NCBI RefSeq assembly: GCF_000974685.2
Contig: NZ_AP018738.1
Coordinates: forward strand, 2,604,001-2,668,000
Direction: 5' to 3'
DNA: 64,000 nt
Source: Ferriphaselus amnicola
GTDB taxonomy: Bacteria; Pseudomonadota; Gammaproteobacteria; Burkholderiales; Gallionellaceae
Positions 22,646 to 38,052 of the stretch are shown here, piece after piece. Below the pieces are notes generated by a model. The model was not told the origin of the DNA, did no database searches, and worked only from the letters and a program-made list of their open reading frames with translations. The first letter of the stretch is position 1. Every line of letters starts with the position of its first letter. The position numbers were made by a program, and so were the translations under genes.

Positions 22646-23674
22646 ATGAAAAATCTTATCCCCCAGCTGGTTCTCGGCATCGAAAGCTCTTGCGACGAGA
22701 CCGGTATCGCTCTTTATCACCAAGAACGCAGGCTGCTTGCCCATGCCTTATTCACACAGGCCGCCATGCACAGCGAGTATGGCGGCGTCGTTCCTGAACT
22801 TGCTTCACGCGATCATGTGCGCCGTGCACTACCGCTAATACGACAAACGTTGGAGCAAGCCGACTGCCAACTCACCGATCTCGATGCCATCGCCTATACA
22901 CGCGGCCCCGGTCTCTCCGGCGCGCTATTGGTAGGAGCCAGCATCGGCTGCGCTCTAGGTTATGCGCTCGACATCCCGGTTATTGGCGTTCATCACCTCG
23001 AAGGCCATTTGCTTTCGCCGCTACTTGCCGATCCCGCACCCGAATTTCCCTTCATCGCCCTGCTCGTCTCCGGCGGGCATACTCAGTTGATGCGCGTGGA
23101 CGGCATCGGGCAATACACTTTATTGGGGGAAACACTGGACGACGCCGCTGGCGAGGCTTTCGACAAGAGCGCCAAACTGCTGGGGCTGAGCTACCCCGGC
23201 GGCCCTGAGTTGGCAAACCTGGCCGCACTTGGGATGCCCGGACGATTCAAGCTGCCGCGTCCGATGCTGCACAGCGGCGACTTGGAGTTCAGCTTCAGTG
23301 GACTTAAGACTGCCGTACTGACACTGACCAAGCAACACGAGCTAGATGAACAGACGCGCGCTGACATCGCCCACGCTGCACAAGCAGCCATCGTGGAAGT
23401 GCTAGTCAGCAAAGCACTTTTCGCACTCAAACAGACCGGACTAAAGCAACTAGTGATTGCGGGCGGGGTCGGGGCCAATCAGCTCTTGCGCAGCCAGCTT
23501 AACGCAGCCGCCACACGTAAAGGAATTCAGGTGTTCTATCCTGCGCTGGAATTCTGCACGGATAACGGTGCGATGATCGCTTTCGCCGGAGCCTTACGTC
23601 TGCGCCAGCAAGAACCGCAAGTGGGATACGCCTTCGACATCAAACCACGCTGGGATCTACAGCAGATTTCTTAG
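22646..23674 (+). CDS. tsaD: tRNA N6-threonylcarbamoyladenosine transferase subunit
   Basis: TsaD transfers threonylcarbamoyl to A37 of ANN-decoding tRNAs; its partner gene tsaB lies at 50813 in this window. The 342-residue protein opens [17 protein letters not shown], has the metal-binding HHLEGH motif at about residues 113-118 and [10 protein letters not shown] next. [10 protein letters not shown] is near the C-terminus. It is divergent from the rRNA promoters, and its stop overlaps the convergent mpl stop by 4 bp. Confidence 0.97.
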
Positions 23675-25011
23675 GCCAACCGCTCCAATAGCTTGCCATG
23701 GATGCCGCCGAAGCCGCCGTTACTCATCACCAGAATCTGATCACCGGGGCGTGCAGCGGCGACAATAGCCTCAATCAACTCGTTCAGGTCATCCTTCACC
23801 ACCGCCTTGTCACCCAAGGGAGATAGTGCGCCGCGCGCATCCCAGCCAAGGTTGCCCGCGTAACAGAACACCAGATCGGCATCCTTCAGACTAACCGGCA
23901 ACGCATCCTTCATCACCCCAAGCTTCATGGTGTTAGAGCGCGGTTCCAGCACAGCTAGGATGCGCGCGTCGCCGACCTTACGACGCAGCCCAGCAACGGT
24001 AGTGTCGATTGCCGTAGGATGATGGGCGAAGTCGTCATAGACAGTGATGTCATTGACCGTTCCGCGCACTTCCATGCGTCGCTTGACGTTCTTGAACTCA
24101 GCCAGTGCGGCCAAGCCCTGCACCACCGGCACACCAACGTGGCGCGCAGCGGCCAGTGCGGCCAGCGCGTTCATGCGATTGTGTTCACCGAGCAACTCCC
24201 AGCGCAAGTTACCTTGCACCTCGCCATTGAGCGTCACCACATCGGCATCGTCGATGTTCCAGCCATCGTCACTACCGAAGCGCTCCACCGCAGTCCAGCA
24301 GCCGCGCTGAATAACGCGCGCCAATGACGTCTCGCGCCCGTTACTCACCACCAAGCCATTGCCCGGCACGCTGCGAACAAGATGATGGAACTGCGTCTCG
24401 ATGGCGGCGAGGTCGGCAAAGATGTCGGCATGATCGAACTCAAGATTATTGAGGATGGCCGTGCGCGGACGGTAATGGACAAACTTGGAGCGCTTGTCGA
24501 AGAAAGCGGTGTCGTATTCGTCGGCTTCGATGACAAAGAACGGCGACTCAGTGATACGGGCAGAAACGCCGAAATTCTGCGGTACGCCGCCGATCAGGAA
24601 TCCGGGATTCAACCCGGCATACTCCAAGATCCAAGCCAGCATCGAGGTTGTCGTCGTCTTGCCATGCGTACCCGCCACCGCCAGCACCCACTTGTCGCGC
24701 AACAAGGTATCGGCCAGCCATTGCGGGCCGGAGGTGTAGGGCAGGCCGCGATTGAGTATCTCCTCCATCAACGGATTGCCGCGCGACACGACGTTGCCGA
24801 CCACGAACACGTCGGGATCAAGCGACAACTGCTCGACACCAAAGCCCTCGATCAACTCGATGCCTTGTTCTTCGAGTTGGGTGCTCATCGGCGGATAGAC
24901 GTTGGCATCGCAGCCGGTGACGCGGTAGCCCGCCTGTTTGGCCAGCACGGCGATGCCGCCCATGAAGGTGCCGCAAATGCCGAGGATGTGAATATGTTTG
25001 CTTTGGCTCAT
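23671..25011 (-). CDS. mpl: UDP-N-acetylmuramate tripeptide ligase (murein recycling)
   Basis: Mpl joins the recycled tripeptide L-Ala-gamma-D-Glu-meso-Dap to UDP-MurNAc. The start at 25011 gives [21 protein letters not shown], the conserved N-terminal dinucleotide-like loop; the open frame upstream to 25275 is the wrong frame of the neighbouring DUF486 remnant. The Mur ligase P-loop [17 protein letters not shown] is at about residue 110, with DFAHHPTAI further on. About 446 residues. Only 5 bp separate it from the broken DUF486 gene, so it probably formed an operon with that gene before the island inserted. Confidence 0.95.
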
Positions 25012-25016
25012 TTGAA

Positions 25017-25211
25017 TCACGCACGAAAGATAAAGTACACCGCGCCCATCAGGCACAGCCCCGCATATATATAGTCCATCTTGAGTGGCTGCCCCATATA
25101 TAGGACAGCGAACGGCACGAACACCGACAAGGTGATGACTTCCTGCAAAATCTTCAGTTGCCCGAGGTCGAGTACGTTGTAGCCGATGCGATTCGCCGGC
25201 ACCTGCAACAG
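25017..25211 (-). pseudogene. DUF486 family small membrane protein, 3' half
   Basis: This reading frame encodes LLQVPANRIGYNVLDLGQLK and ends MDYIYAGLCLMGAVYFIFRA, the C-terminal half of the DUF486 family (about 115 residues, four membrane helices). The N-terminal half is on the same strand at 38053-38202. Together they give about 114 residues in frame. The gene was split by the island at 25212-38052. The apparent start at 25220 uses island bases and is probably not used. The family's function is unknown to me; the fold resembles small drug/metabolite transporters. Confidence 0.9.
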
Positions 25212-25232
25212 TACATGCAAGTTTTACATGAC

Positions 25233-25261
25233 TTGACTTACTGTGCAAGTATTTCCAAAAT
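25233..25261 (+). promoter_or_regulatory. Putative promoter of the recombinase operon at the island's left end
   Basis: TTGACT (25233-25238) and CAAAAT (25256-25261) are spaced 17 bp apart and lie 37 bp before the first recombinase start. The -10 overlaps the inverted repeat at 25247-25266, so recombinase binding could repress its own operon. This is inferred from consensus and position. Confidence 0.45.
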
Positions 25262-25266
25262 GGACA
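25247..25266 (+). repeat. Island left subterminal inverted repeat
   Basis: This 20-base stretch (AAGTATTTCCAAAATGGACA) matches the inverted right-end copy at 38020-38039 at 14 of 20 positions, including AAGT, AAAA and TGGAC. It lies 36 bp inside the inferred left border. A recombinase binding site is the simplest reading. Confidence 0.55.
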
Positions 25267-25297
25267 CATTCCCATCGGATAGCTAGAAAGTCAGTCA

Positions 25298-26776
25298 ATG
25301 AAGGAATTGCGGCGCAAAGTAATTTTGCCAGTTTTCCAACTGTCGGAGTTGACGACAGAAGACGATCCTCAGGCGTTCAAACGGGTTATTGACCAGGGCA
25401 AGGGACATCTTGATCTAATCTACCACTACCGCTTTGTCTGGGATGAGCAAGTTGGGCGTGGCTTCAACTACAATCTGTTTCCTGTTGTCCTTAGCCGAGA
25501 GGGGATGCCTTGGCACCTTGGCACTCTCTACATCTTGTCGCAGTTGGAGGGGGAAACTTCCCCCGTCATGACGTCTTACCAGAGCAAGGCTGACGATCTG
25601 GGAGCTTATAAAGAATGGCTGGACACTCAGATTCGACCTGATGAATTGATTTTCCAGTTTCCCAAGATCAAGTTGCGACGGCCAACGTATCGCTATCACG
25701 GCCATCTTCAGAAGCAGATACAAGCCGGAGAGATTGCGCCTTCAACTGGTAGGAGGCGCATGGGAACCGTGGTTGCTTTCTACCGCTGGTTGATTGAAAA
25801 CAATTACTTCCAACCTGAGTACCCGCCGTGGGAGGAAAAGAAATTCCAACTTGTATTCAAAACGACCGAGGGACGCGCAATATCGAAGAGGGTAATTTCA
25901 ACTGACGTTAGTATTCGTACACCAAAGTCGGAAGATCCTTTCGCAGGGGCCATCCAAGACGGCGGCAAGCTGCGACCGCTTACCGGCAAGGAACAGGATT
26001 GGATTCTTGAGGCCACCCTGGCCAAAGGTAACACCGAGTGCTACCTGTTCCAACTCTTTGTGTTGGCCACTGGCGCCCGTATCCAGACAGCCGGCACGCT
26101 CCGTCTGCGGCACTTCATTCAATCCAACCCACATTATTCCAAGTCGCTAACAGGGGAAGGAGAGGTCTTCAAACTGAAGGCAGGACCAGGCACGGGCATC
26201 GACACCAAGAACGACAAGAACGGCGTTTTACAGGTTCCACGACCCATTTATGAACTGCTTCACACCTATGCCACGTCCGAGCGCGCCAAAGTACGGAGGG
26301 GCCGGTTCGAGGTCAAGCACGGTGAGCACCCCGACCCCTACTTGTTCCTTACGCAGCAGGGTAGCCCCTATTTCACGGCAAGGGATGAGGCCCTGCGCTT
26401 CAACCCCGAACTCGACCGCCGTCACGAGAAGACAGGGCAAACAGTGCGACAGTTCCTCAATGAGCAAGTGATTCCCTACGTGCGCGAGCACCACAATAAA
26501 AACTTCCACTATCGAATTCACGACCTCCGTGCCAGCTTTGGAATGAACATGACGGAGCTTCTGATGAAATTAGTTCAAGCAAAAACCATCACCCTGCATC
26601 GGGCGCGGATGACCGTAAAGGATCTGCTATGGCATGAGAGCTTAACCACCACAGACCTGTATCTGAACTATCGCAATCAGATGGATGCTATCTACGAAGC
26701 AGTGAATGGCTATGGAAATCAGTTGAAAAAGTGGACCGAGCGAGCGATGAAGGGCATAGAGGTGATTGATGAATAA
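25298..26776 (+). CDS. Tyrosine recombinase, first of three
   Basis: This is likely the site-specific DNA strand-exchange enzyme of the island. In the 492-residue protein the catalytic set is visible: Arg in LATGARIQT (about 261), His and Arg in YRIHDLRASFG (about 408 and 411), His in LLWHESLTTTDLYLNY (about 445) and the Tyr shortly after (about 453). The first 230 residues should hold the arm/core-binding region, including a helical segment ending AFYRWLIENNYF. It starts close to the island's left end; its stop overlaps the next gene's ATG by 8 bp, so the operon is translationally coupled. It resembles the first gene of recombinase-trio operons in layout, not in any checked alignment. Confidence 0.85.
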   Translation: MKELRRKVILPVFQLSELTTEDDPQAFKRVIDQGKGHLDLIYHYRFVWDEQVGRGFNYNLFPVVLSREGMPWHLGTLYILSQLEGETSPVMTSYQSKADDLGAYKEWLDTQIRPDELIFQFPKIKLRRPTYRYHGHLQKQIQAGEIAPSTGRRRMGTVVAFYRWLIENNYFQPEYPPWEEKKFQLVFKTTEGRAISKRVISTDVSIRTPKSEDPFAGAIQDGGKLRPLTGKEQDWILEATLAKGNTECYLFQLFVLATGARIQTAGTLRLRHFIQSNPHYSKSLTGEGEVFKLKAGPGTGIDTKNDKNGVLQVPRPIYELLHTYATSERAKVRRGRFEVKHGEHPDPYLFLTQQGSPYFTARDEALRFNPELDRRHEKTGQTVRQFLNEQVIPYVREHHNKNFHYRIHDLRASFGMNMTELLMKLVQAKTITLHRARMTVKDLLWHESLTTTDLYLNYRNQMDAIYEAVNGYGNQLKKWTERAMKGIEVIDE

Positions 26777-28709
26777 ATCGGCTGCGCCCATTTTCTCCAC
26801 GCGTTTGACTGTCACCATCAAACTACCTCTGGACAAGAACGTTCGCATTCTGAACCCGGAACAGGTCATTCTGAAAATCGGCTCTAATACCTATGACTTC
26901 GGCGCTTTCTGCTACGCCTTGCGCTCGCGCAAGAAACGCAACATACACAAGCCTGGCGAGGTTGTGCTCGGCTCCTTCCTTAGGCAGCGCCCCCGCCAAA
27001 TCTTGCAACTCATCAGGGCACTCTCCCATCTCATCACCGACGGCGGCAAACGCATGGCGACAGTCAATGCCTATGCTCAGAGCCTGAAGGCATTCCTTGA
27101 CTGGGCTGATACTAACGAGAAGAGCGACTGCCTGTCTGGGGGCGATGCCACCCGCGATACCTATCTAGCTTGGGCAAAGGACACCGGCGAACGCTACCGT
27201 CGGCAAGAGTTTGGTGCTGTGTGGCACAACCATCGACTTCAATATATCGAAGAGCTTCTCGAAGCCTCGACTGGGGGCGAAAACCTTCATCGCGGCGTCC
27301 GCAAAGTCAAGTACAGCAGGAGCTCCAATGGTGGCACCGACCCCTTGGCTCCGCTCGATTTTGCTCATGCGATAGCGCTCAACCAAGCACTGTTCGACGG
27401 GCTGTGCGACTTAGTGCTAAAGCAAATGACTTTCCCCTACAAGCTGATGTTGCCAGCCACCCTTGGCTGGTCAGAAAATCACCTCTGGGTTTTTCCCTCG
27501 CAAACTTGGCGTATGGTCCCGTACCAATGGGATGCCGAACGGGGAAAGCGTACCAAAAACTGTTGGGCATATGACTATGCCGCTGGCCGTCTCGCCACCA
27601 CTGATGAGATTGAGCATCGCTATGCCGGGCGCTTCCGTTCAGAGCGACGCAAAGTGGCAAAGAGGCTAATTGCACAAGCACAGGCCCGTATTGACTCCGC
27701 CAATGCAAATGCACGGGATCGCGTACGAATCATGCTCGGAATGTACGCCCACAATGCGTTCCTGTTCCTCTTCTATTGCAACACCGGAGCCAATGAGTCA
27801 GTCGTGCGAGAAATCGAGACGGATGGCGAAATCGACACAACCACCCTCAACCAAAAATTCCGATCAATCAAGTTTCGGGCTGGAAGTAAGCCGATTACTC
27901 TAACTGTACCGGCCGCCTTTATGCCGTCTTTGCGCCGCTTCATGGAATTACGACGCTTCCTGCTTGGTGACAAGCCGTTTCCGTATCTATTTTTCACTTT
28001 GGGATTCTTGAACGCAAAGCCGGCAGGGCAGATCGGTTCGAATTCTCTATATTCGCTTTACAAAAGTCTGCTGCGTGTCATAGATCCGAAGTTACCGCGA
28101 ATGGGGTCACGAAAGCTCCGTGCCAGTGTGGCAGACTGGTACCAGCGTCACCACGACGCATCGGTCACCGCCAAGGTGCTGCAAAATTCGGAGCAGACCA
28201 CGCAGAAGCGCTACGACGCCGGGTCAGCAACTGATCACCGCGAGGAACTATCGCTGTTCATGAATTCGGTCTCAGAGTCTGCAAAAAAGCTGCGCGTTCT
28301 TCCGATCACGGCGGTAGTGGATACCAGACCGTTGGAAGAAGGCGGACGCTGCGATAACTTCGGCCATCCCGACGCTATGGCGAATCACGTACCGGTCAAG
28401 CCGAATTGCAAGGACAGCCAGGGTTGCCTGTTTTGCACACACAGGGTTCTGATCGCCTGCGAGGAGGACGCGCGTAAGGTGGCGTCCGCTGCCTTCGTCA
28501 TGGAACAAGTGATTCTCGGCCCAAAACACGAGGAAGCTCTACGTCCGCTTATCGCTAAGTGCGACCAAGACCTCGAAAAAATAGCCGCCTTTGGCAACTG
28601 CCGCGCGATGACTGATCGGGTACTCAAGGATGTGTTTGAGAACGGCAATCTCACACCCTTCTTCGCCGACAAGTACCAGTTGTTTCTCGAATTGGGAGTC
28701 ATTGCATGA
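26769..28709 (+). CDS. Tyrosine-recombinase-like protein, second of three, degenerate active site
   Basis: The 646-residue protein has the C-terminal recombinase fold but altered key residues. The first catalytic Arg position reads TGANESVVREIE (Asn, about residue 341), the HxLR box reads SRKLRASVADW (His replaced), and the last box reads LQNSEQTTQKRYD with the Tyr (about 481) kept but the GH pair lost. A Cys/His cluster follows (CDNFGHPDA, then NCKDSQGCLFCTHR, about residues 520-560), probably zinc-binding. The ATG at 26769 is preferred over a TTG at 26766. It overlaps its neighbours by 8 bp and 4 bp. A structural or DNA-bridging partner role is inferred. Confidence 0.75.
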   Translation: MNKSAAPIFSTRLTVTIKLPLDKNVRILNPEQVILKIGSNTYDFGAFCYALRSRKKRNIHKPGEVVLGSFLRQRPRQILQLIRALSHLITDGGKRMATVNAYAQSLKAFLDWADTNEKSDCLSGGDATRDTYLAWAKDTGERYRRQEFGAVWHNHRLQYIEELLEASTGGENLHRGVRKVKYSRSSNGGTDPLAPLDFAHAIALNQALFDGLCDLVLKQMTFPYKLMLPATLGWSENHLWVFPSQTWRMVPYQWDAERGKRTKNCWAYDYAAGRLATTDEIEHRYAGRFRSERRKVAKRLIAQAQARIDSANANARDRVRIMLGMYAHNAFLFLFYCNTGANESVVREIETDGEIDTTTLNQKFRSIKFRAGSKPITLTVPAAFMPSLRRFMELRRFLLGDKPFPYLFFTLGFLNAKPAGQIGSNSLYSLYKSLLRVIDPKLPRMGSRKLRASVADWYQRHHDASVTAKVLQNSEQTTQKRYDAGSATDHREELSLFMNSVSESAKKLRVLPITAVVDTRPLEEGGRCDNFGHPDAMANHVPVKPNCKDSQGCLFCTHRVLIACEEDARKVASAAFVMEQVILGPKHEEALRPLIAKCDQDLEKIAAFGNCRAMTDRVLKDVFENGNLTPFFADKYQLFLELGVIA

Positions 28710-30754
28710 AGATTGAGGCACGTATCTATCTGAACGGAGTCACCAAAGGCCCCGACCCTTGGGACGAAAACAAAGGCATCTACCTGCCACTGGACCACAT
28801 CATCTGCCGCGACGTGGATGGCACCCCACATACGGTTGGCGAGTTCGTCTGGCCATGGACGGCCTACACAGCCCACCAAAAACGGTTCCTGTTGCATTTT
28901 TATTACTGGAAGCAAAAAGCGAACAAGATCAACGCCAACATGATGGATATCACGGTAGAGCGCGAAGCCCGTATGCGTGAGTTGCAGTTCCTGATGACAC
29001 GGCAAATTTACTACGGCAATGAGAGCGCGCCAAATACGCTAAAAAATAAACTCGCTGTTCTGCGTAAACTCGCTCGCTTTTCCGAATCGCAAGGTTGCGC
29101 GGTGCGCGATGTGCTGACGCAGACGGCTCTGCTGGATGCCTTCGGCGCAAGCTTGCCCAATCAAATCATGGCTGACTGGATAACTTGGATCACGTTCCTT
29201 CGCCAACTCGATCCACAAATGCAACTGGGTTTCACGCTAGCAACTCCGAAGTGCTGGAAAGAAGTGGAGCGGCGCGCAAAGGAGTATCGTGACAACGTTC
29301 ACCAGTTTGCGCCTCTACCGACTCGAATCTACGCCGCACTGATCAATAACCTCTCAGCGGAACTTGATGACATCGAGGTACACAAGAGCCGACTGATGGC
29401 CGCGTTGCGGGAAGCTTTTGACTTGTATCACCATGCTAAGGCAACCGAGACGGAGCATGGTCTGAGAATTGGTGGCGCCCTGATCAAGAAACACAACCTC
29501 GGAGCCTATCTCGAAAGACGCGGCTACGGCAGCAATCAGTTGAGGAGCATTGGAGGAGCGTTGCGCGAGATTTTCCAGGTGTGCAAGCTGCAGATTCATG
29601 TGTTCAGCGGAATGCGGGATACGGAGGCGCGCCATTTACCGTTCCACTGCATGGCCTCGGAAGAGAGTAATCACGGACGCAAGCACTGCTTGATCATCGG
29701 TTCCACGACAAAGTTCAACAAAGGGCGGCGTCTTAGAACGAAGTGGGTCACCACCGAGCGTGACGGATTCCGAGCAATTCGGCTAGCTCAGGAATTTGCG
29801 GCTATGTACTACAAGGTACTCGGTGTCACGCCGAGCAAAGCCGACGACATCAAGGACAACTATCCGCTGTTTCCTTCAACCGCCTACCTGCCCTGGATGA
29901 TGGGACAACCTGTTCTGCCGGGTGTGCGCATTTCTGCTTGTGGAACAAAGCTTTCTCATACGGATGCTATGGATTCGATGCTGTCCCGCCTGTGTGCGAC
30001 CATCGATGAGCAGGACATCGCTGAGCTTGAGGATATCGACCCCTTCCGCGCTTGGCACGAGGAGTCCGAATTCATGGTTGGCCAGCGCTGGCCTTTGACA
30101 ACCCACCAGTTACGCCGGAGCCTTGCGGTGTATGCCAACGCAAGCGGCTTGGTCAGGCTCTCGTCCCTGCGTCGGCAGCTACAGCACATGACACGGGAGA
30201 TGGCCCTGTACTATGGGCGCGGCAGCACCTTCTGCAAGAACTTCATTGCGGACGATCCTGCTGGATTCAAGAAGCACATTGCGGTCGACTGGCAGGACGG
30301 TGCTGAGGAGGCTGAGATGCTAGCCTTCGTGCGAGACGTTCTGAACAGCGCCGAGCCCATGTTCGGTGGAGCCGGCAACTTCTACGAGCGACAGCGCGAG
30401 CGCGGTGAGGTCATGTCGCGCGAGGAGGTTGGTAAGCAGATGAAGGCAGGGCTGCTCGCCTACCGCGACGGGCCTCTGGGCGGATGCACGCGACCTGGCA
30501 TGTGTGAAACCCGCAAGGGCTTGAACCTCATTGACACCGTTTGCGCCACCAATGGGTGCAAACACCTGATTGGCAAGCACTCGAAGATTGTGCAGACAAT
30601 TCGACTCAAGCGTGCGGCGATTGCCCACATCACACCTGGCTCGATAACTGAAGTGATGGAGCGGGAGGAGTTGGAGACACTAGAACGTGTGGAACGCGAA
30701 TGGCGACTGCAGGAACACCCTGCGGCGCACTCTACGGGAGATGGAAATGCCTGA
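28706..30754 (+). CDS. Tyrosine-recombinase-like protein, third of three
   Basis: This is a large 682-residue protein with a recombinase C-terminal half. Visible catalytic residues are Arg in FSGMRDTEARHL (about 303), a Lys-rich beta turn TTKFNKGRRLRTKW (about 335), His/Arg in PLTTHQLRRSLAVYA (about 466-469), and His and Tyr in QLQHMTREMALYYGRG (about 493 and 501). So, unlike the second protein, it could be active. A C-terminal cysteine cluster (GGCTRPGMCETRKG and CATNGCKHLIGK, about 592-625) suggests a zinc site. It overlaps the second gene by ATGA and the next small gene by 8 bp. Confidence 0.78.
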   Translation: MKIEARIYLNGVTKGPDPWDENKGIYLPLDHIICRDVDGTPHTVGEFVWPWTAYTAHQKRFLLHFYYWKQKANKINANMMDITVEREARMRELQFLMTRQIYYGNESAPNTLKNKLAVLRKLARFSESQGCAVRDVLTQTALLDAFGASLPNQIMADWITWITFLRQLDPQMQLGFTLATPKCWKEVERRAKEYRDNVHQFAPLPTRIYAALINNLSAELDDIEVHKSRLMAALREAFDLYHHAKATETEHGLRIGGALIKKHNLGAYLERRGYGSNQLRSIGGALREIFQVCKLQIHVFSGMRDTEARHLPFHCMASEESNHGRKHCLIIGSTTKFNKGRRLRTKWVTTERDGFRAIRLAQEFAAMYYKVLGVTPSKADDIKDNYPLFPSTAYLPWMMGQPVLPGVRISACGTKLSHTDAMDSMLSRLCATIDEQDIAELEDIDPFRAWHEESEFMVGQRWPLTTHQLRRSLAVYANASGLVRLSSLRRQLQHMTREMALYYGRGSTFCKNFIADDPAGFKKHIAVDWQDGAEEAEMLAFVRDVLNSAEPMFGGAGNFYERQRERGEVMSREEVGKQMKAGLLAYRDGPLGGCTRPGMCETRKGLNLIDTVCATNGCKHLIGKHSKIVQTIRLKRAAIAHITPGSITEVMEREELETLERVEREWRLQEHPAAHSTGDGNA

Positions 30755-31169
30755 CATCCTAAATGACTACTTCGAGGCTCTAAATCGTTTAATAAGGGGT
30801 AAGCCGGTCAATGTTCCTAAAGGAACCAAGATCACCAACGACTCGGTATCTCTGGAAGCAGGGCGCAAGAAAGGAACTATAAAGAAGTCTCGCCCAATAT
30901 TCAGCGACCTCATCGAAGCTATTGATGCGGCTGCTAAGGCCGAGACAAAGCCAGGTAATGAATTACAGTCAAAACTGGACAAGGTTAAGGCCCAAGCTGC
31001 CCACTACCGAGGACTCTGGGAAGAGGCGTTGGCAAGGGAGATGTCACTGGTTAAGCAGTTATGGGACGAGCGAGAGGCTTGGGCAAAGGAACGTGCTGCG
31101 CTTTCGGATGGCAAGGTCATTTCCATGAGGAAGCCTAGTCGTGTCTTGAATCCTAAACGAGATAGCTAA
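30747..31169 (+). CDS. Small helical accessory protein of the recombinase operon
   Basis: The ATG at 30747 (MPDILNDYFEALNRLIRGK) is chosen because GGGAG lies about 7 bases upstream; longer frames only overlap the third recombinase. The product has about 140 residues: a basic central segment (GTKITNDSVSLEAGRKKGTIKKS), a helical region, then a likely coiled coil (about 70-120, ELQSKLDKVKAQAAHYRGLWEEAL) and a basic tail. No enzyme motif is visible. Position and coiled coil recall TnpC of Tn554, a small partner of two recombinases; similarity was not tested. It may bind DNA or hold the recombinases together. Confidence 0.65.
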   Translation: MPDILNDYFEALNRLIRGKPVNVPKGTKITNDSVSLEAGRKKGTIKKSRPIFSDLIEAIDAAAKAETKPGNELQSKLDKVKAQAAHYRGLWEEALAREMSLVKQLWDEREAWAKERAALSDGKVISMRKPSRVLNPKRDS

Positions 31170-31202
31170 TCGCCAGCTCCGGATGCTTCACTTACAATCT
31201 GC

Positions 31203-33752
31203 TCAATCTATTGCCACCACAGTGTCGTATAGACCATAGTTAGACAAGCCTTGGTGGCTCTCTATGCCGGTATAGCGTAGCGACGCGTCTTCATAGCGAC
31301 GGAAGGCGAAGACCGCCTGATTCATCTGCTCGGTATTGAACACCTTGAGCCGAACGAGCAAGTAAAAATCCGCTACGGTCAGGCCGGTGACGGTCAGGAA
31401 CAAGTCTGGTTCCAGCTTGGTGATTACATCCTGCAAGGTGTTCTCGCGGAAGTCGGTCAGGTACATGAACGCCGGGATGCGGGTGGCGAACTTGATCAGC
31501 TTTTCCTGAATCTGTTTGCGCTTGGATTTGTACTCTTTCTCCTCCTCGGTCAGCTCTTTCTTCTCCTTCTCCGTCAATTCGCCGGTTTTTGCCTTGCCCT
31601 TGAGTTCCTTCACCTTCTCGCTCTTGTTGATGATGGTCTCGATGATATTGTCGCCCAGCGCGCGCCAGCCTTCGATGCGCTCCACGGCAGCCATCGCCTC
31701 GGCGTTTTCCATGATGCGCCGCAGCGTGTCGTTGTCCACATTCACCAGCAGCGCGCTCTCCCACTTGCGCGCCAGCAGCGTGGCAGAAGTGCCCGCCATC
31801 GCGATATCGAGGATGCCGCCCGCGTCGATCTGCGTCATGTTCGCGCCGTCGTAGGCCAGCACGGGCAAGAAGGACACCAGCTCCTTGACGGCATTTTCTG
31901 GATTCGATTCGTTGGGTGACAGGCCGATGCCGTACTCCGAAAGTTGCCGCAGCGCGCGCGTGGGTGCGAAGTCGAACACGAAGCAGACGGGCTTGAGTAT
32001 CTCCTCCTCGTTCGGGTTGTCGCCGTTGGGATTCTTGATCCACCACGGCGACTGCACGCGGAACGCCGCCTGAAAATAGGTCTCGGGCGATTTGAGATTG
32101 CGCAGCATCAGGATGGATGACCACTGCGCCACGGTAACGCCGGTAGTGAGCTTGCCGCATGAGAGCGTGATGCTCTTGGTGTCGAATCCGCTGCCGATGG
32201 CTTTGCGTACCGGCGGCAACGCTTCCAGTCCGATCCCCGCCGCAGCGCCCGCTGCGACGGCCACTGTGTAGTCGCGCCAGAACACATTGTGTTTTTCGGC
32301 CAGCAGGTTCGCCATCGCATGGCAAGCCGCGACGTTAGGCAGAAACCAGAACGAGTGTTGCAGGTAAGGTAGCAGGCGCACATCGGAATACGGGAACGGC
32401 GGTCGCGCGCCGGTCTTCAGGTGCTCGACCGATTTCTGTGTATAGCCGCCACGGATGATGTCCAGCCACTTCTGCACATCACTCTTGTGCTTAAACTTTG
32501 CCGCCTTGCCTGTGCCCGATGCCTCGAAAAATGAGTTGAGATCGAACTCGTCAAACTCGCCGCCGCTGGCAATCGCCAGCAGTTCATCCGGCATCTGATA
32601 AGTCAGCAGCCGCATCTGTGGCAGCGCCCCATAGGGGTTACGCTTACTTGGGTGATCGGCGGCGAACACCTCCTTGGCGCGTTGCTCGTCGGTGTAGGTC
32701 CAGTTGAAAATCTGTTCCTCTATGAATTCGCCGGTCGCCAGCGCCTTGAATGGTGTGCCGGAGAGGTACAGATACGCCTTGGTGGTGATCGGCAGGAACT
32801 CGGTTTCCTTCTCCGAGAGCACGGTGAAATCCTCGTTCATATCCTCCAGTCCAGCGGCGTATTCGAGCTTGGCCTCCTTCTTTGCGACGGCCTCCTCTTC
32901 GCCCTCAAACAGTTCCTTCGCGGTGTCACGCCACGCCCCGAAGTGGTATTCGTCGAACACCACCAGATCCCAATTCACCGTGTGCAGCCACTCGTTCTTG
33001 GGCTTGATGTTCCCGACCACATCACGACCGAGCAGATCCTGAAAGGAGCCGAAATAGACGACCGGCTGCTTGCGGTCGATCTGCGTCGGGTCGCTACCGG
33101 ATGAGCGCGAGAGATACTGCCAGCCGTTGAAGTCCACATGGTTTTCTAGGTCGGTCTGCCAGGCATCTTCCACCGCCGGTTTGAAGGTGAGCACCAGTAC
33201 CCGCTTTGCGACTAGCTTCTTGGCCAACTGGTAAGCGGTGAAGGTCTTGCCGAAGCGCATCTTCGCGTTCCACAAAAAGCGCGGGGCGGCGTTTTTGTTT
33301 TCCGCCCAGATCGAGCGGTAGTAGTCGAAGGTCTTGTCCACCGCTTCGGCCTGCTCCCGACGCATTGGAAAGGTTTCGTGATGCGTTCCCGAGAAGCGCT
33401 GGCCGGTGCGCAGCTCGGTGAGCACGGTCTTCACATCCTTGAGCGAACAGCGCATCCACTCCAGCTTGACCTTCTCGAAACCTTTCTTCTGGAGTGCTGC
33501 ACGCACCTCATGGTCGCTGAAGATACTGCCATCGTCGCGCTCGGCGGATTCGTTCAGTTCGATCTTGTAGTTTTCAATGGCAGCAGTCTTCAACTGCTCG
33601 GCGATGCGCTGCTTCACGTCGCGCGTAGTTTGCCCCACTTTGAGCAGCCCCTTGTGCGCCACATCGGCGATCGAATAGGCGTAGATGCGCGGCCGGGCTT
33701 CCGGCTTGGGTGCGAGGATTTCGTCGATGGTGGGCTTACTCATCTGCTTCAT
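31203..33752 (-). CDS. GIY-YIG-type nuclease fused to DEAH helicase (restriction subunit)
   Basis: The 849-residue protein probably cleaves unmodified DNA after ATP-driven translocation. Residues 20-110 look like a GIY-YIG/T5orf172-type nuclease (RIYAYSIADVAHKGLLKVGQTTRDVKQRI). The helicase follows: Walker A AKMRFGKTFTAYQLA (about 165-180), DEAH-like VVFDEYHFGAWRD (about 265), and a motif VI-like QAAFRVQSPW (about 575). A charged helical stretch with many Lys and Glu lies at about 690-740. The start at 33752 overlaps the methyltransferase stop by 17 bp; an ATG at 33743 is an alternative. It is the last gene of a minus-strand operon with two methyltransferase-like genes. Confidence 0.82.
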   Translation of the reverse strand: MKQMSKPTIDEILAPKPEARPRIYAYSIADVAHKGLLKVGQTTRDVKQRIAEQLKTAAIENYKIELNESAERDDGSIFSDHEVRAALQKKGFEKVKLEWMRCSLKDVKTVLTELRTGQRFSGTHHETFPMRREQAEAVDKTFDYYRSIWAENKNAAPRFLWNAKMRFGKTFTAYQLAKKLVAKRVLVLTFKPAVEDAWQTDLENHVDFNGWQYLSRSSGSDPTQIDRKQPVVYFGSFQDLLGRDVVGNIKPKNEWLHTVNWDLVVFDEYHFGAWRDTAKELFEGEEEAVAKKEAKLEYAAGLEDMNEDFTVLSEKETEFLPITTKAYLYLSGTPFKALATGEFIEEQIFNWTYTDEQRAKEVFAADHPSKRNPYGALPQMRLLTYQMPDELLAIASGGEFDEFDLNSFFEASGTGKAAKFKHKSDVQKWLDIIRGGYTQKSVEHLKTGARPPFPYSDVRLLPYLQHSFWFLPNVAACHAMANLLAEKHNVFWRDYTVAVAAGAAAGIGLEALPPVRKAIGSGFDTKSITLSCGKLTTGVTVAQWSSILMLRNLKSPETYFQAAFRVQSPWWIKNPNGDNPNEEEILKPVCFVFDFAPTRALRQLSEYGIGLSPNESNPENAVKELVSFLPVLAYDGANMTQIDAGGILDIAMAGTSATLLARKWESALLVNVDNDTLRRIMENAEAMAAVERIEGWRALGDNIIETIINKSEKVKELKGKAKTGELTEKEKKELTEEEKEYKSKRKQIQEKLIKFATRIPAFMYLTDFRENTLQDVITKLEPDLFLTVTGLTVADFYLLVRLKVFNTEQMNQAVFAFRRYEDASLRYTGIESHQGLSNYGLYDTVVAID

Positions 33753-35319
33753 TGTCTAGACTCAACGCCCTGACTTGAGACTCGATGTACGCCTGCTCCT
33801 GCTTGGTGATTCCATATTTCTCGTAGAGCGCTTCGTCCGTCCAAGTGCGGTTCCACTTCTGGATCGGAACCCAAGTGTAAGTTGAGTGCGTTGCGTGCTG
33901 CGTGATTTTGCGTACCGAAACTAGGAAACGAAAGAACCGGGTTGTGTAGTACGTCTGGAGACTCTTGGCCGCTTTTTCCGAATCGACGGAAAAGAACAGG
34001 AACGACTGCGTACAGACAGAAGGCGATGGAGCGATCAGCGGCTTTCCCACAATTTGATGCGGCAACGCATCACCACCATTGAATGCCTGTGGGACAAGAA
34101 CTTTCCATGTGTCGATGAGATGTGCGCTCTTGGTTACTTCCTTGCGCCCGATATAGCCCACGCTGCGTTTCATCGTGCGGATGTAATAGAGCGGCAAATC
34201 GCCGGCACGCTCCTTTTCGTGGAAACCGTCGAAATTCGATGTCCAGCCAAACTCCTTGTCGCGGGCGAGTATGGTGTTGATGGATGGCTCTGCCTGCTTC
34301 TGCACTTTTCGCAGAATCGACATGGCGCGACCATCCCGCACAAACACGTCGTACTCGCCAAGGTTGCGCGCCATCGGCCCGATAACCTCTCCGCCCCGAC
34401 TGGTCGTCACACTGCAATCGCCGTTGTGCGCCGCATCCCACAAGAAATAGCAAACGCCCGCCTTGACCTCGACCCCAGGAAACACATCGCTTGCCGCCGG
34501 ATAGTCGACAAGTTCGCGCATCCGTCGATCCCCGAGCATCGTCTGCCGGAACTCGCTAAGCCCAAGACCAGAAGCCATCCAGCGCGAAGGAATAATCATC
34601 GAGAGATAGCGTGGTTCCAGCTTCTTCGCCTGTTCAACGAAATGCTGGTAGATCGGCACGTCGCGCGTACCGCCGTCCGAGCCAAGTTGATACGGAGGAT
34701 TCCCGATAATCACATCAAATTGCATGTCATCTCCAAACAGCTCGGCCAGCCGAGCTTTAATGTTGTCCGCGTGGATGAAGGCATAAGCATGGGTTTCCAG
34801 CTCATTACCCCTGTCATAGGTCGTTTGGCCCGCGCCACAAAACACGCATTTACCATGGGACCAGGTATGTTCTAAGCGCTCAAACCAGATGTTGCCTGCA
34901 TCATTCGTGAATGAACCGGCAATTGAGTGCGGGCCATCGGCGTGCTTGGAGCAATACACACTGCGCCGTGCCAGCAAGCTGGTGAGATGCGTGATGCCGA
35001 TGCCGAACACCTGCCGGGTCAGGATGTGATCGACGCGTTCGTCAAGATTCGGTATCTCATCTGCCAGCCCCTGTGTGAGGCGGCTGGTGATCTCGCGCAG
35101 GAACACACCCGACTTTGTGCACGGGTCGAGGAACGTCACTGTGCTGTCAGACCAGAGGTTAGCCCCGTCGTGGCTGGCCGCCCACGCCTCGGCTAGGGTA
35201 TCCAGCATCCGATTGGCGAACTCCGGCGGAGTGAATACTTCATCGTTGGAAAGGTTCGCGATGCAGGTCAGCACATCGGGATTGCGCCCGCGCAGGGTGA
35301 AGGATGCCTGACCGTTCAT
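33736..35319 (-). CDS. Adenine-specific DNA methyltransferase (Eco57I-like)
   Basis: This 527-residue protein should methylate adenine in the recognition site of the restriction system. The SAM-binding motif I is FLDPCTKSGVFLREI (about residue 68-82), and motif IV, the catalytic NPPY, is in FDVIIGNPPYQLGSD (about 205). The C-terminal half has SMIIPSRWMASGLG and other features of Eco57I-type enzymes and may contain target recognition. A CVFCGAG segment suggests an extra metal site. It overlaps the upstream small methyltransferase gene by 4 bp and the helicase gene by 17 bp, so all three appear coupled. Confidence 0.85.
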   Translation of the reverse strand: MNGQASFTLRGRNPDVLTCIANLSNDEVFTPPEFANRMLDTLAEAWAASHDGANLWSDSTVTFLDPCTKSGVFLREITSRLTQGLADEIPNLDERVDHILTRQVFGIGITHLTSLLARRSVYCSKHADGPHSIAGSFTNDAGNIWFERLEHTWSHGKCVFCGAGQTTYDRGNELETHAYAFIHADNIKARLAELFGDDMQFDVIIGNPPYQLGSDGGTRDVPIYQHFVEQAKKLEPRYLSMIIPSRWMASGLGLSEFRQTMLGDRRMRELVDYPAASDVFPGVEVKAGVCYFLWDAAHNGDCSVTTSRGGEVIGPMARNLGEYDVFVRDGRAMSILRKVQKQAEPSINTILARDKEFGWTSNFDGFHEKERAGDLPLYYIRTMKRSVGYIGRKEVTKSAHLIDTWKVLVPQAFNGGDALPHQIVGKPLIAPSPSVCTQSFLFFSVDSEKAAKSLQTYYTTRFFRFLVSVRKITQHATHSTYTWVPIQKWNRTWTDEALYEKYGITKQEQAYIESQVRALSLDNEADE

Positions 35320-36032
35320 GCAGCTTCCTTCGTAGTATTATCGGGCGTCATGCTAGCAAGCTCCCGAATGGTCATCGGAGGGTAGGTCTTCACTGGCGTA
35401 AAGATTTCATGCTTGGCAAACAGCGAGCCCTGTTCGGTATGGGAGGACATGCCAGTGAGCGTATCAAAGCGGAAGTCGCGGCGCTGAAACTTCCCCTTGC
35501 CCAGATAGCCCCATTCGGCAAAAGTAATCGGCTCTCCGCTGCCGACGCACATGCTCAAGGCGTCACCATGAACCAGATTCTGCGACAACACGTAAAAAGC
35601 AGCACAGTAGAGATCGTCTGATTCGTCGATGTTCAGATATCCAGAAAAGATTTCCAGCATGTTCTCGCGGCACTCGGCGATGTTATCTACCAGCAGCTCG
35701 ATGCCGTAAATGCACATCAGCGCAAAGAGCGCATAGTGCTGCGTTTCAAAGTCAGATTTGCCGAACTTGCTTTCTACAACCGCGAGCTTGCGCTGCAAAA
35801 CCTTCACAATGAAGTTACCGCTTCCACATGCCGGTTCCAGAAAACGCGCATCAATGCGCTCCGACTCGTCTTTCACAAGGTCGAGCATGGCGTCAACCAT
35901 CCATGCAGGGGTAAATACCTCACCATGGTCAGCGACACGTTTTCGAGATTTGATCAGACTCATGGGTGGCAGATTCAGGCTATAGCGTTCTGGCATTGTA
36001 CCTAATACCTCCATCTGAGTAACTTGATGCAA
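35316..36032 (-). CDS. Second DNA methyltransferase-like protein, without NPPY
   Basis: The 238-residue protein has EVFTPAWMVDAMLDLV and motif I FLEPACGSGNFIVKVLQRKL, the N-terminal part of N6-adenine DNA methyltransferases, and later YGIELLVDNIAECRENML. It ends soon after the NLVHGDAL segment, and no NPPY/DPPY catalytic motif is seen. It may be a SAM-binding helper or a remnant; the tight 4-bp overlap with the larger methyltransferase argues for a maintained gene. The start could be at 36032 or at an internal ATG near 35996 (MPERYSLNLPPMSLIK). It is the first gene of the minus-strand operon. Confidence 0.7.
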   Translation of the reverse strand: MHQVTQMEVLGTMPERYSLNLPPMSLIKSRKRVADHGEVFTPAWMVDAMLDLVKDESERIDARFLEPACGSGNFIVKVLQRKLAVVESKFGKSDFETQHYALFALMCIYGIELLVDNIAECRENMLEIFSGYLNIDESDDLYCAAFYVLSQNLVHGDALSMCVGSGEPITFAEWGYLGKGKFQRRDFRFDTLTGMSSHTEQGSLFAKHEIFTPVKTYPPMTIRELASMTPDNTTKEAA

Positions 36033-36148
36033 ATTCCTAGAAGGATGTTTTCGGTTTACTCAATGCCGGCAATTAGCGGAGCAACATGTACAATTGACGC
36101 ACACTCGGGTATATATTCCCAAAATGAATTTCGACTGAGAAAGATCCT

Positions 36149-36604
36149 GTGCGAACGATTGGCATAAGAGTTGCCCCCAAGGCCGTTACCTTTGTTGTGT
36201 TTGATGCGGACGGACAGATTGTGTTGAACACAGAAGATATTCGCATACCGATCGCATTCCGTACTCCCGACGCGCTCAAATATATCCGGAATAACTTGCT
36301 GGACATTCTGCGTGAGTACAGCATCGAGCGTGCGGGCATTCGAACAACAGAGCCAAATGCACAATCGCCAAGTATCGCTAGAATTCAGATTGAGGGGGTT
36401 GTGCAGGAAGCGTTTGCAAGCAGCCAGCTTAATTCCTACTACATCGGGCAGATTTCCTCCATTTCGGCTCGCCTCAATATCGACCGGGTCGATTTCAAAC
36501 GGTACGTTGATGGTCAGCTCGACTGGCCGGTGGAGAATTGGGCCGATCTGAGTAAGGAACAGCGTGAAGCGCTGCTCTGTGCGATTGGGGCAAGCCGTGC
36601 TTAA
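36149..36604 (+). CDS. Unknown protein, possible RNase H/RuvC-like fold, paired with a kinase
   Basis: The product of 151 residues starts at a GTG at 36149. It opens RTIGIRVAPKAVTFVVFDADGQ, a strand-turn-strand pattern like the first beta hairpin of RNase H/RuvC-fold proteins, but the usual catalytic Asp after GI is absent. A later IQIEGVVQEAF segment recalls the RuvC helix with Glu. I do not recognise a named family, and a catalytic role is doubtful. It is divergent from the methyltransferase operon (116 bp apart), and its stop overlaps the probable GTG start of the kinase gene by 8 bp, so the two are coupled. Confidence 0.6.
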   Translation: MRTIGIRVAPKAVTFVVFDADGQIVLNTEDIRIPIAFRTPDALKYIRNNLLDILREYSIERAGIRTTEPNAQSPSIARIQIEGVVQEAFASSQLNSYYIGQISSISARLNIDRVDFKRYVDGQLDWPVENWADLSKEQREALLCAIGASRA

Positions 36605-37640
36605 ACCTTATAGCAAAGCTGAGATTTCCTTTGATCTTCGCCAGGAGATCGGACAGGCAGGTGCAAATTCAAATACTCATGTTGCTCATGACCATCAACT
36701 GGACGCTGAGATCGTCATAAAAAAAATCCCGAAGGACTCGCTCGATTCAGTTCATATGTTTTTCGAGGAGTCGAGGGTTCTGTATCTAAGTAGCCATCCG
36801 AATGTGGTTCAGATATTTTATGCATGCCAAGATGCTGACAGCATCTATATTGCGATGCCATACTACCGGTGCGGATCGCTCAATGATCTGATCAACAGTC
36901 GCTATCTCACCGTCCGTGAGATTGTTGTGTTGGGTTGCCAAATTGCTAGTGGGCTACACAACATTCACTCGAAGCGACTTGTGCACTTTGACATTAAGCC
37001 GGACAACGTTCTTTTGTCTGATCGCGGCGAGGCATTGATTTCCGACTTCGGACTTTCTCGGCGATTGACCACAGCGGGAACGGCTGGGCAAGACCGCTTG
37101 TACTACAAGATGATGCCACCAGAGGCATACCAAACTTCAGATTTCACAAGCGCCTTCGACATTTATCAACTTGGCCTTACCTTGTATCGTATGTGCGGCG
37201 GCAATGTCGCTTTCGAAGAACAATTTGCGCAATTCGGCGCGACTTCGACGACCTTCGATCGAGATGGATTCAAGTTCGCAGTAAGGAACGGGCGTTTTCC
37301 AAACCGAGATGCCTTTGAAGACCATATTCCCGATCGTCTTCGACGGCTTGTGCGGAAGTGCATAGAGCCACACGCTCCCGATCGCTTCAAGGCGGCAATC
37401 GACGTTGCCAACGAGTTAGCTCAAATCGAGGATCGTTTGGACTGGCAGTTCGAGAAACAAGGGACAACACGCGTATGGACTAGAAGTGACGATGACAAGC
37501 ATTTCCGACTTTCCGTCGATGCGAGCGGCTCCTCACTTGCCGAGAAGACGAGTGCGTCAGGACGCAAATCACGAATCACGGGCTATTGCAAAACCGGCAT
37601 TTCCAGTCGTGAGATAAGACGTTTTTTGGGGGAAACCTAA
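36597..37640 (+). CDS. Ser/Thr-type protein kinase
   Basis: The protein is a Hanks-type kinase. Visible motifs are the Lys of beta 3 in EIVIKKIPKD, a helix C Glu in FFEESRVLYLSSHPNVV, the catalytic loop LVHFDIKPDNVLLSD, the metal-binding SDFGLSRRL, and MMPPEAY in place of APE. The catalytic loop reads HFD rather than HRD, so it is a non-RD kinase. The glycine-rich loop is irregular. About 347 residues; a tail after the kinase domain (from about 285) has no membrane span, so it should be cytosolic. The GTG at 36597 overlaps the upstream stop; an ATG at 36564 in the same frame is an alternative. Confidence 0.82.
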   Translation: MLKPYSKAEISFDLRQEIGQAGANSNTHVAHDHQLDAEIVIKKIPKDSLDSVHMFFEESRVLYLSSHPNVVQIFYACQDADSIYIAMPYYRCGSLNDLINSRYLTVREIVVLGCQIASGLHNIHSKRLVHFDIKPDNVLLSDRGEALISDFGLSRRLTTAGTAGQDRLYYKMMPPEAYQTSDFTSAFDIYQLGLTLYRMCGGNVAFEEQFAQFGATSTTFDRDGFKFAVRNGRFPNRDAFEDHIPDRLRRLVRKCIEPHAPDRFKAAIDVANELAQIEDRLDWQFEKQGTTRVWTRSDDDKHFRLSVDASGSSLAEKTSASGRKSRITGYCKTGISSREIRRFLGET

Positions 37641-37822
37641 TGTCTTCAACAATTAAGAACGACGCATCGCGATACTTAACTCGCGCAACGTTGGCGAGCG
37701 CGTGCCCAATCCCAAATAACGACAACCTTTCCCGCCCAACAGAGGACGCTAGAGCAGAGCAACGTGAAGCTAAGGGAGTCATAGATCGTCGGTGGTACAT
37801 CCAACTCCCCCTAAGACAATAA
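37640..37822 (+). CDS. Possible small protein after the kinase
   Basis: A 60-residue frame starts at an ATG that overlaps the kinase stop (TAATG). The sequence is polar with no recognised domain. The overlap suggests coupling, but a chance frame cannot be excluded. From 37823 to the island border I see no gene, only the repeats listed below. Confidence 0.25.
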   Translation: MSSTIKNDASRYLTRATLASACPIPNNDNLSRPTEDARAEQREAKGVIDRRWYIQLPLRQ

Positions 37823-37927
37823 GGGGGCATCTTTCTGGCTAGAATGAGTGAGGTGTCGGTTGCGAATAACCTCCGACGTCAGTAAGAGTACATGTTACGG
37901 CGACTTGAAATTTGAGCACGGCAGAAA

Positions 37928-37977
37928 TGGACAAAAGGGACTCAACTTGTCCATCAATCTTCGAAATTTGATGGACA
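37928..37977. repeat. Cluster of inverted TGGACA motifs near the island's right end
   Basis: TGGACA occurs at 37928-37933, its complement TGTCCA at 37948-37953, and TGGACA again at 37972-37977. The last two are the tips of a perfect 10-bp inverted repeat, TGTCCATCAA (37948-37957) and TTGATGGACA (37968-37977), around a 10-base loop. The first two form a 7-bp inverted repeat (TGGACAA/TTGTCCA). The same hexamer occurs at the left end (25261-25266). Recombinase or accessory binding sites are likely; a hairpin RNA is possible. Confidence 0.6.
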
Positions 37978-38019
37978 CGAAGAAAATTGTTATGTCACTG
38001 ATTCTATGGCAAAGCCACT

Positions 38020-38039
38020 AGTCCATTTTTGGCTAACTT
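38020..38039 (-). repeat. Island right subterminal inverted repeat
   Basis: On minus this reads AAGTTAGCCAAAAATGGACT, matching the left copy (25247-25266) at 14 of 20 positions. It lies about 13 bp inside the inferred right border at 38052. Confidence 0.55.
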
Positions 38040-38052
38040 GGGTGTCGAAGCA

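Follow-up and report, generated by a model that had tools for sequence, protein, structure and literature searches.

A conserved gene pair encoding a RuvC-fold pseudo-resolvase and an Stk-type kinase on a genomic island of Ferriphaselus amnicola is a candidate abortive-infection module

The window (the whole stretch of DNA that was analyzed, 64,000 nucleotides of F. amnicola contig NZ_AP018738.1) carries a small gene, here called P1, followed directly by a gene for a eukaryotic-like kinase. Both lie on a genomic island, next to a divergent restriction-modification (R-M) operon. The features of the locus, in window coordinates, are as follows.

25212..38048, no strand assigned: genomic island of 12.8 kb, inserted in a DUF486 (DMT_6) gene, with the pair as cargo
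25298..31169, forward strand: mobility genes, three large consecutive ORFs and a short ORF, with a weak PF00589 tyrosine-recombinase match in the first ORF only
31203..36032, reverse strand: R-M operon, recognized by Pfam and PADLOC, context outside the module
36149..36604, forward strand: P1, small gene with a GTG start, 151 aa; RuvC-fold pseudo-resolvase in which catalytic Asp7 is replaced by Arg
36597..36604, forward strand: 8 bp frame overlap between P1 and the kinase gene, GTGCTTAA, read from the sequence
36597..37640, forward strand: Stk-type eukaryotic-like kinase gene with a GTG start, 347 aa, HFD for HRD
37446..37637, forward strand: beta-rich domain at the kinase C-terminus (residues 284-347), delimited by DSSP on the model, with no Pfam family

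The overlap between the two reading frames is exactly 8 bp. An in-frame GTG upstream, at 36564, is a possible alternative start for the kinase; the start at 36597 was preferred because it agrees with the homologues (e.g. ATGCTTAAGCC). Most homologous pairs, across phyla, have the identical 8 bp overlap, and from this arrangement translational coupling of P1 and the kinase is probable. Promoter and terminator scans around the pair gave no yield above chance. A preliminary description of this DNA had reported a 151-residue protein overlapping a kinase by 8 bp, the kinase having HFD in place of HRD and the pair being divergent from the R-M operon within one island; the ORFs and the sequence bear out each of these points, with HFD at residues 130-132 and a gap to the operon of 116 bp.

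Comparison with a second genome of the genus defined the island. BLAST of the window against the corresponding stretch (L188) broke at 25,211 and 38,049, joining at L188 positions 2352/2356. The genes that flank the island in the window are contiguous in that genome: aminopeptidase (PF00883), VTT, DUF486/DMT_6 and Mur ligase. Because the breakpoints meet inside the DUF486 gene of L188, we conclude that the 12.8-kb island interrupted DUF486. A 9-bp inverted repeat (AAAATGGAC) was seen near both island ends. The Mur ligase (Mpl-like) ORF at 23674-25275 (534 aa) has an N-terminal stretch that most of the corresponding genes in relatives lack; the ORF probably runs through what is left of the truncated DUF486, with the real start near residue 86-93. 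A search of 99 further genomes in the relatives set and of 273 further genomes in the class did not find the pair, which was therefore probably gained horizontally. For the recombinase genes of the island, a literature search on a Gamma-Mobile-Trio identity gave no usable match. The products of the R-M operon are a ResIII-type helicase, whose N-terminus is of the T5orf172 (GIY-YIG-like) kind, an Eco57I-type methylase and a short N6-methylase. The upstream methylase gene of the operon (238 aa) has its own methylase motif, and the operon is not an obvious named R-M type.

Generic family searches of Pfam, NCBIfam and PADLOC with the P1 sequence alone were uninformative. The protein was modeled with AlphaFold2 from 53 natural sequences (pLDDT 95.5). 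The model aligned with RuvC 7xhj over 147 residues (VIA-align; Z 18.9, rmsd 2.6). Its eight top structural matches were all bacterial RuvC (Z 17.7-18.9, 140-149 of the 151 residues), followed by a group at Z about 13 made up mostly of plant and phage RuvC-like resolvases, and Foldseek also matched it to RuvC (E 5.6e-8). P1 further matched PHROG 3875, 'RuvC-like Holliday junction resolvase' (E 1.6e-36), weak matches to Pfam RuvC (PF02075) were found in 7 of 53 family members (best 1.8e-4), and a P1-RuvC profile comparison gave a partial alignment over residues 3-64 at 50% probability. Sequence profiles of P1 against the PDB did not find RuvC; the basis for assigning the fold is thus the predicted model, the weak Pfam matches, PHROG 3875 and the partial profile. 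As modeled, P1 is a complete RuvC fold. The preliminary description had suggested a possible RNase H/RuvC-like N-terminus and had proposed structure prediction as a check; the predicted fold is indeed RuvC/RNase H, while its restriction to the N-terminus does not hold, as the fold spans the whole of P1.

In the profile alignment IGIR of P1 lies on LGID of RuvC, placing an Arg at the position of Asp7, and this Arg is present in 91 of 91 distinct sequences covering the position. R47, R78, E68, E82, E87 and E140 are invariant as well. Glu68 and Glu140 are invariant and residue 137 is not; these were equated with RuvC E66, D141 and D138, respectively, by motif and fold register, an assignment made by reading since residues past 64 lie outside the profile alignment. 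Because the first catalytic Asp is invariably Arg, the label 'RNase H-like' should not be taken to mean nuclease, and the automatic name of a Holliday junction resolvase is probably misleading. The active-site region is conserved but altered, which suggests that P1 may retain a binding role rather than cutting, and the RuvC fold alone is not proof that P1 binds DNA. Degenerate RuvC-like domains occur in Tex, Spt6 and TEFM, where the fold has a non-nuclease use, and P1 probably resembles them in this. Compared with RuvC resolvase itself (PF02075), P1 shares the complete fold and a length of about 150 aa, but it has the invariant Arg and always adjoins a kinase.

The kinase domain was matched by PF00069 (7e-38) and the protein by PHROG 2361 (1e-70). 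K42, E58, D132, N137 and the DFG motif are conserved (92 distinct homologues), and the Arg of HRD is replaced by Phe in 87 of these 92. In the model, a standard kinase fold precedes a beta-rich domain made up of about 64 C-terminal residues, to which structural fold matches of the kinase did not extend and for which a lenient Pfam scan gave no match above cut-off. This domain is confined to this kinase clade and has a mean identity to homologues of 28%, vs 55% for the kinase domain; it is a candidate docking or sensing domain. It is fast-evolving and has a conserved Trp and Cys in the window copy and the homologues.

Searches from both sides showed that the two genes travel together. With P1 as the tblastn query, 5 plasmids and 14 phage records were recovered, each with the kinase directly downstream, and the kinase query returned the same 5 plasmids and, above 36% identity, the same 14 phages. 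A profile scan of bacterial genomes with P1 gave 53 loci, spread over alpha-, beta- and gammaproteobacteria, a cyanobacterium and Firmicutes; the kinase was immediately 3' of the P1 gene in 53/53, with gene order and spacing kept in all. The cyanobacterial P1 (L018) is 64% identical to that of the window. Among viral contigs (IMG/VR) a single P1 sequence gave no match, whereas the P1 alignment gave 51 loci and the kinase, independently, 59, with identical order in both sets; the only exceptions to pairing were at contig edges (L087, L171) or had a broken kinase (L101/L187). Pairwise distances of P1 and kinase were correlated (r 0.845), a value reached by none of 9,999 permutations. Neighboring gene families showed no third gene travelling with the pair, none being common to more than 4 of the loci, and two genes thus appear sufficient. 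P1 and the kinase are a real conserved module, as the preliminary description had supposed in proposing a two-gene unit that should recur in other genomes. Its further expectation of R-M or recombinase genes nearby failed, neither family being conserved beside the pair.

Several individual loci deserve mention. The kinase is broken by an IS insertion on a K. variicola plasmid (L004, from 9001), and its frame is interrupted in the L101/L187 viral contig; the P1 gene is retained in both. The same pair occurs in the SPbeta-like Bacillus phages SPbetaL6/L7 (L009, 8001-9553), surrounded by unnamed genes. On a Mesorhizobium plasmid (L002, 7221-8941), DarT/DarG lie directly upstream of the pair.

Across the loci the commonest flanking families were LexA/CI-like repressors (HTH_3, Peptidase_S24), and many pairs lie among ordinary genes. 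Defence genes beside the pair in individual loci included DarTG, SAVED-HNH CBASS effectors, ShosA and SduA, with dCTPase/dGTPase, methylase and R-M genes as further flanks outside prophages. These neighbors, observed in individual loci, point to defence as supportive evidence only.

The kinase proved to have a studied relative. It is about 37-40% identical over its full length to Stk of the Stx phages 933W and phi24B (phi24B Stk: 36.6%, including the C-terminal domain, E 6e-67). In the phage loci L007 and L008 a RuvC-like gene lies immediately upstream of stk, as in the window, overlapping it by 7 bp in phi24B, and the gene order in Stx-type phages is cI - DUF3024 - RuvC-like - stk, then N. 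Among 5,426 complete E. coli genomes, 223 gave a match to the phi24B-type pair, and in 221 the match covered 80% or more of the query. Stk has been described, in papers citing the exclusion work of Tyler and Friedman (2004) and Friedman (2011), as a tyrosine kinase with little activity in uninfected cells that is activated by HK97 and aborts HK97 growth (PMC6356687, PMC3681748, PMC3564112, PMC8008677). The statement in the preliminary description that no named system has this form therefore falls, since the kinase is related to the HK97-exclusion kinase of 933W and the phi24B copy has a P1 homologue upstream. Neither this type of kinase nor its part in exclusion is new; the window pair adds a new member, located on a chromosomal island.

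For the P1 homologue of phi24B the mass calculates to 17,096 Da, an exact match to protein P2, seen on 2D gels by Riley 2012; P2 is reported there to be restricted to stable lysogens, like cI, and its gene to be downstream of cI (PMC3342100). By this mass match, a P1 family member has been seen as a protein in the lysogen, where Stk acts. The DUF3024 gene that separates cI from the RuvC-like gene (L007 about 1075-1413, L008 4592-4933) encodes a protein of 13,472 Da, the mass of the likewise lysogen-restricted protein P3 of the same study (Riley 2012, PMC3342100). In the accessible literature we found neither a link between P2 and Stk nor a description of the RuvC-like gene as an obligate Stk partner with a family-wide altered nuclease site; there Stk is treated as a single gene. 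The Stx and window copies differ in setting, as the Stx copies lie downstream of cI and the window copy beside an R-M operon on a chromosomal island. The cI transcription unit of the lambdoid immunity region is a feature of the phage copies that the window copy, in its recombinase/R-M island, lacks, and such a location is probably not defining for the Stk family.

Other named systems were compared with the pair. PD-T4-6 and staphylococcal Stk2 are also eukaryotic-like kinases linked to phage defence, but both are described as single-gene systems, and the likeness of PD-T4-6 to the window kinase that was seen is generic kinase-domain similarity. Several PADLOC kinase models, PD-T4-6 among them, matched the window kinase with E-values of 1e-35 or poorer, a level that any kinase of this sort should reach. 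The best PADLOC kinase match was Mad6 of MADS (6.6e-48), which scored 108.7 against an NCBIfam equivalog cut-off of 460 bits and came with no full Mad gene set; BREX PglW scored 31.9 against a cut-off of 990 bits. The Mad6 and BREX matches were set aside as generic kinase similarity, and the PD-T4-6 match as probably of the same nature. KKP is likewise a prophage-borne kinase module with anti-phage action, but it consists of two kinases and a phosphatase; the window pair has no phosphatase, no ORF for a second kinase or phosphatase of this kind follows the window kinase, and no third gene is conserved across loci. CapK/CapS, an anti-sigma-factor-type kinase with a STAS-like repressor (PMC13373217), was rejected, the window kinase being PF00069 and its partner a RuvC fold.

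We propose, with a probability of roughly 0.6, that the pair is a self-contained abortive-infection module of two genes, carried on a mobile island, with the kinase as effector and the pseudo-resolvase as a regulator that senses infection, restrains the kinase, or does both. P1 and the kinase would be made in a coupled manner from their overlapping genes, and the kinase would stay quiet in healthy cells. Once triggered by an infecting phage, it would phosphorylate cell proteins and halt growth before the phage multiplies. P1, lacking the key nuclease residue, would serve as obligate regulator of the kinase, most likely sensing a product of infection (phage DNA in branched form, or a recombination/replication protein of the phage), and this sensing would release the kinase or switch it on. 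We infer that the two proteins act jointly, with P1 as sensor or restraint and with such a trigger and substrates, and that the window copy would defend its host; a defence role now has much better grounds than position alone. If stk alone were enough for HK97 exclusion, P1 might be unnecessary or act only as a modulator.

The strongest rival, a simple toxin-antitoxin pair, we judge rather unlikely. The kinase would then be a growth-stopping toxin, P1 would inhibit it directly or be its sacrificial substrate without sensing nucleic acids, and phage takeover would unbalance the two. Antitoxin-toxin operons typically have the partner upstream and the two genes translated in a coupled, overlapping manner, P1 and the kinase are co-inherited, and kinase toxin-antitoxin modules of the KKP (PMC11341870) and HipA-like (DS-6, PMC13092281) kinds have an anti-phage effect. 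Against this, the RuvC fold and conserved charged residues of P1 (R7, R47, R78, E68, E82, E87, E140) resemble a retained binding site more than a mere inhibitor. This reading overlaps the abortive-infection reading, and the main difference is what P1 senses. We give low odds to a role in lysogeny or maintenance of the element, with the kinase phosphorylating repressors or host proteins to steer the prophage or island and exclusion arising as a side effect. The Stx-phage pair does belong to the cI transcription unit in the immunity region, LexA/CI-like repressors (HTH_3, Peptidase_S24) are the commonest flanks, and KKP does both jobs (PMC11341870); but in the window and in many genomes the pair lies outside any immunity region of a prophage and lacks a repressor partner, and no third gene is conserved near it.

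That P1 is an active RuvC-type resolvase feeding a DNA signal to the kinase is very unlikely: the position of RuvC Asp7 is an invariant Arg and that equated with D138 is not conserved, even though the fold, the PHROG 3875 name and Glu68 and Glu140, at the positions equated with E66 and D141, would fit such an activity. Control of the adjacent R-M operon, raised in the preliminary description, is the least probable reading of all. The genes are divergent, 116 bp apart and on one island, but R-M genes are not neighbors of the pair elsewhere, and neither P1 nor the kinase has a recognizable DNA-binding regulator domain; we reject it because the neighborhood is not conserved.

Within the abortive-infection reading, the specific idea that an obligate, catalytically dead RuvC-fold sensor of branched DNA arising in infection, or of phage recombination machinery, switches on Stk-type kinases is tentative, and we would bet against it at present. 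If true, it would tie DNA structure directly to an abortive response driven by a kinase, in Proteobacteria, Firmicutes and Cyanobacteria alike. Stk of 933W is cited as an example of prophage kinases that abort superinfection. P1 names a missing partner of Stk relatives in several phyla and makes the question of how HK97 is sensed testable, with the pair of Bacillus SPbetaL6/L7 as a Gram-positive test system. The module extends beyond Stx prophages to mobile islands and plasmids of environmental bacteria.
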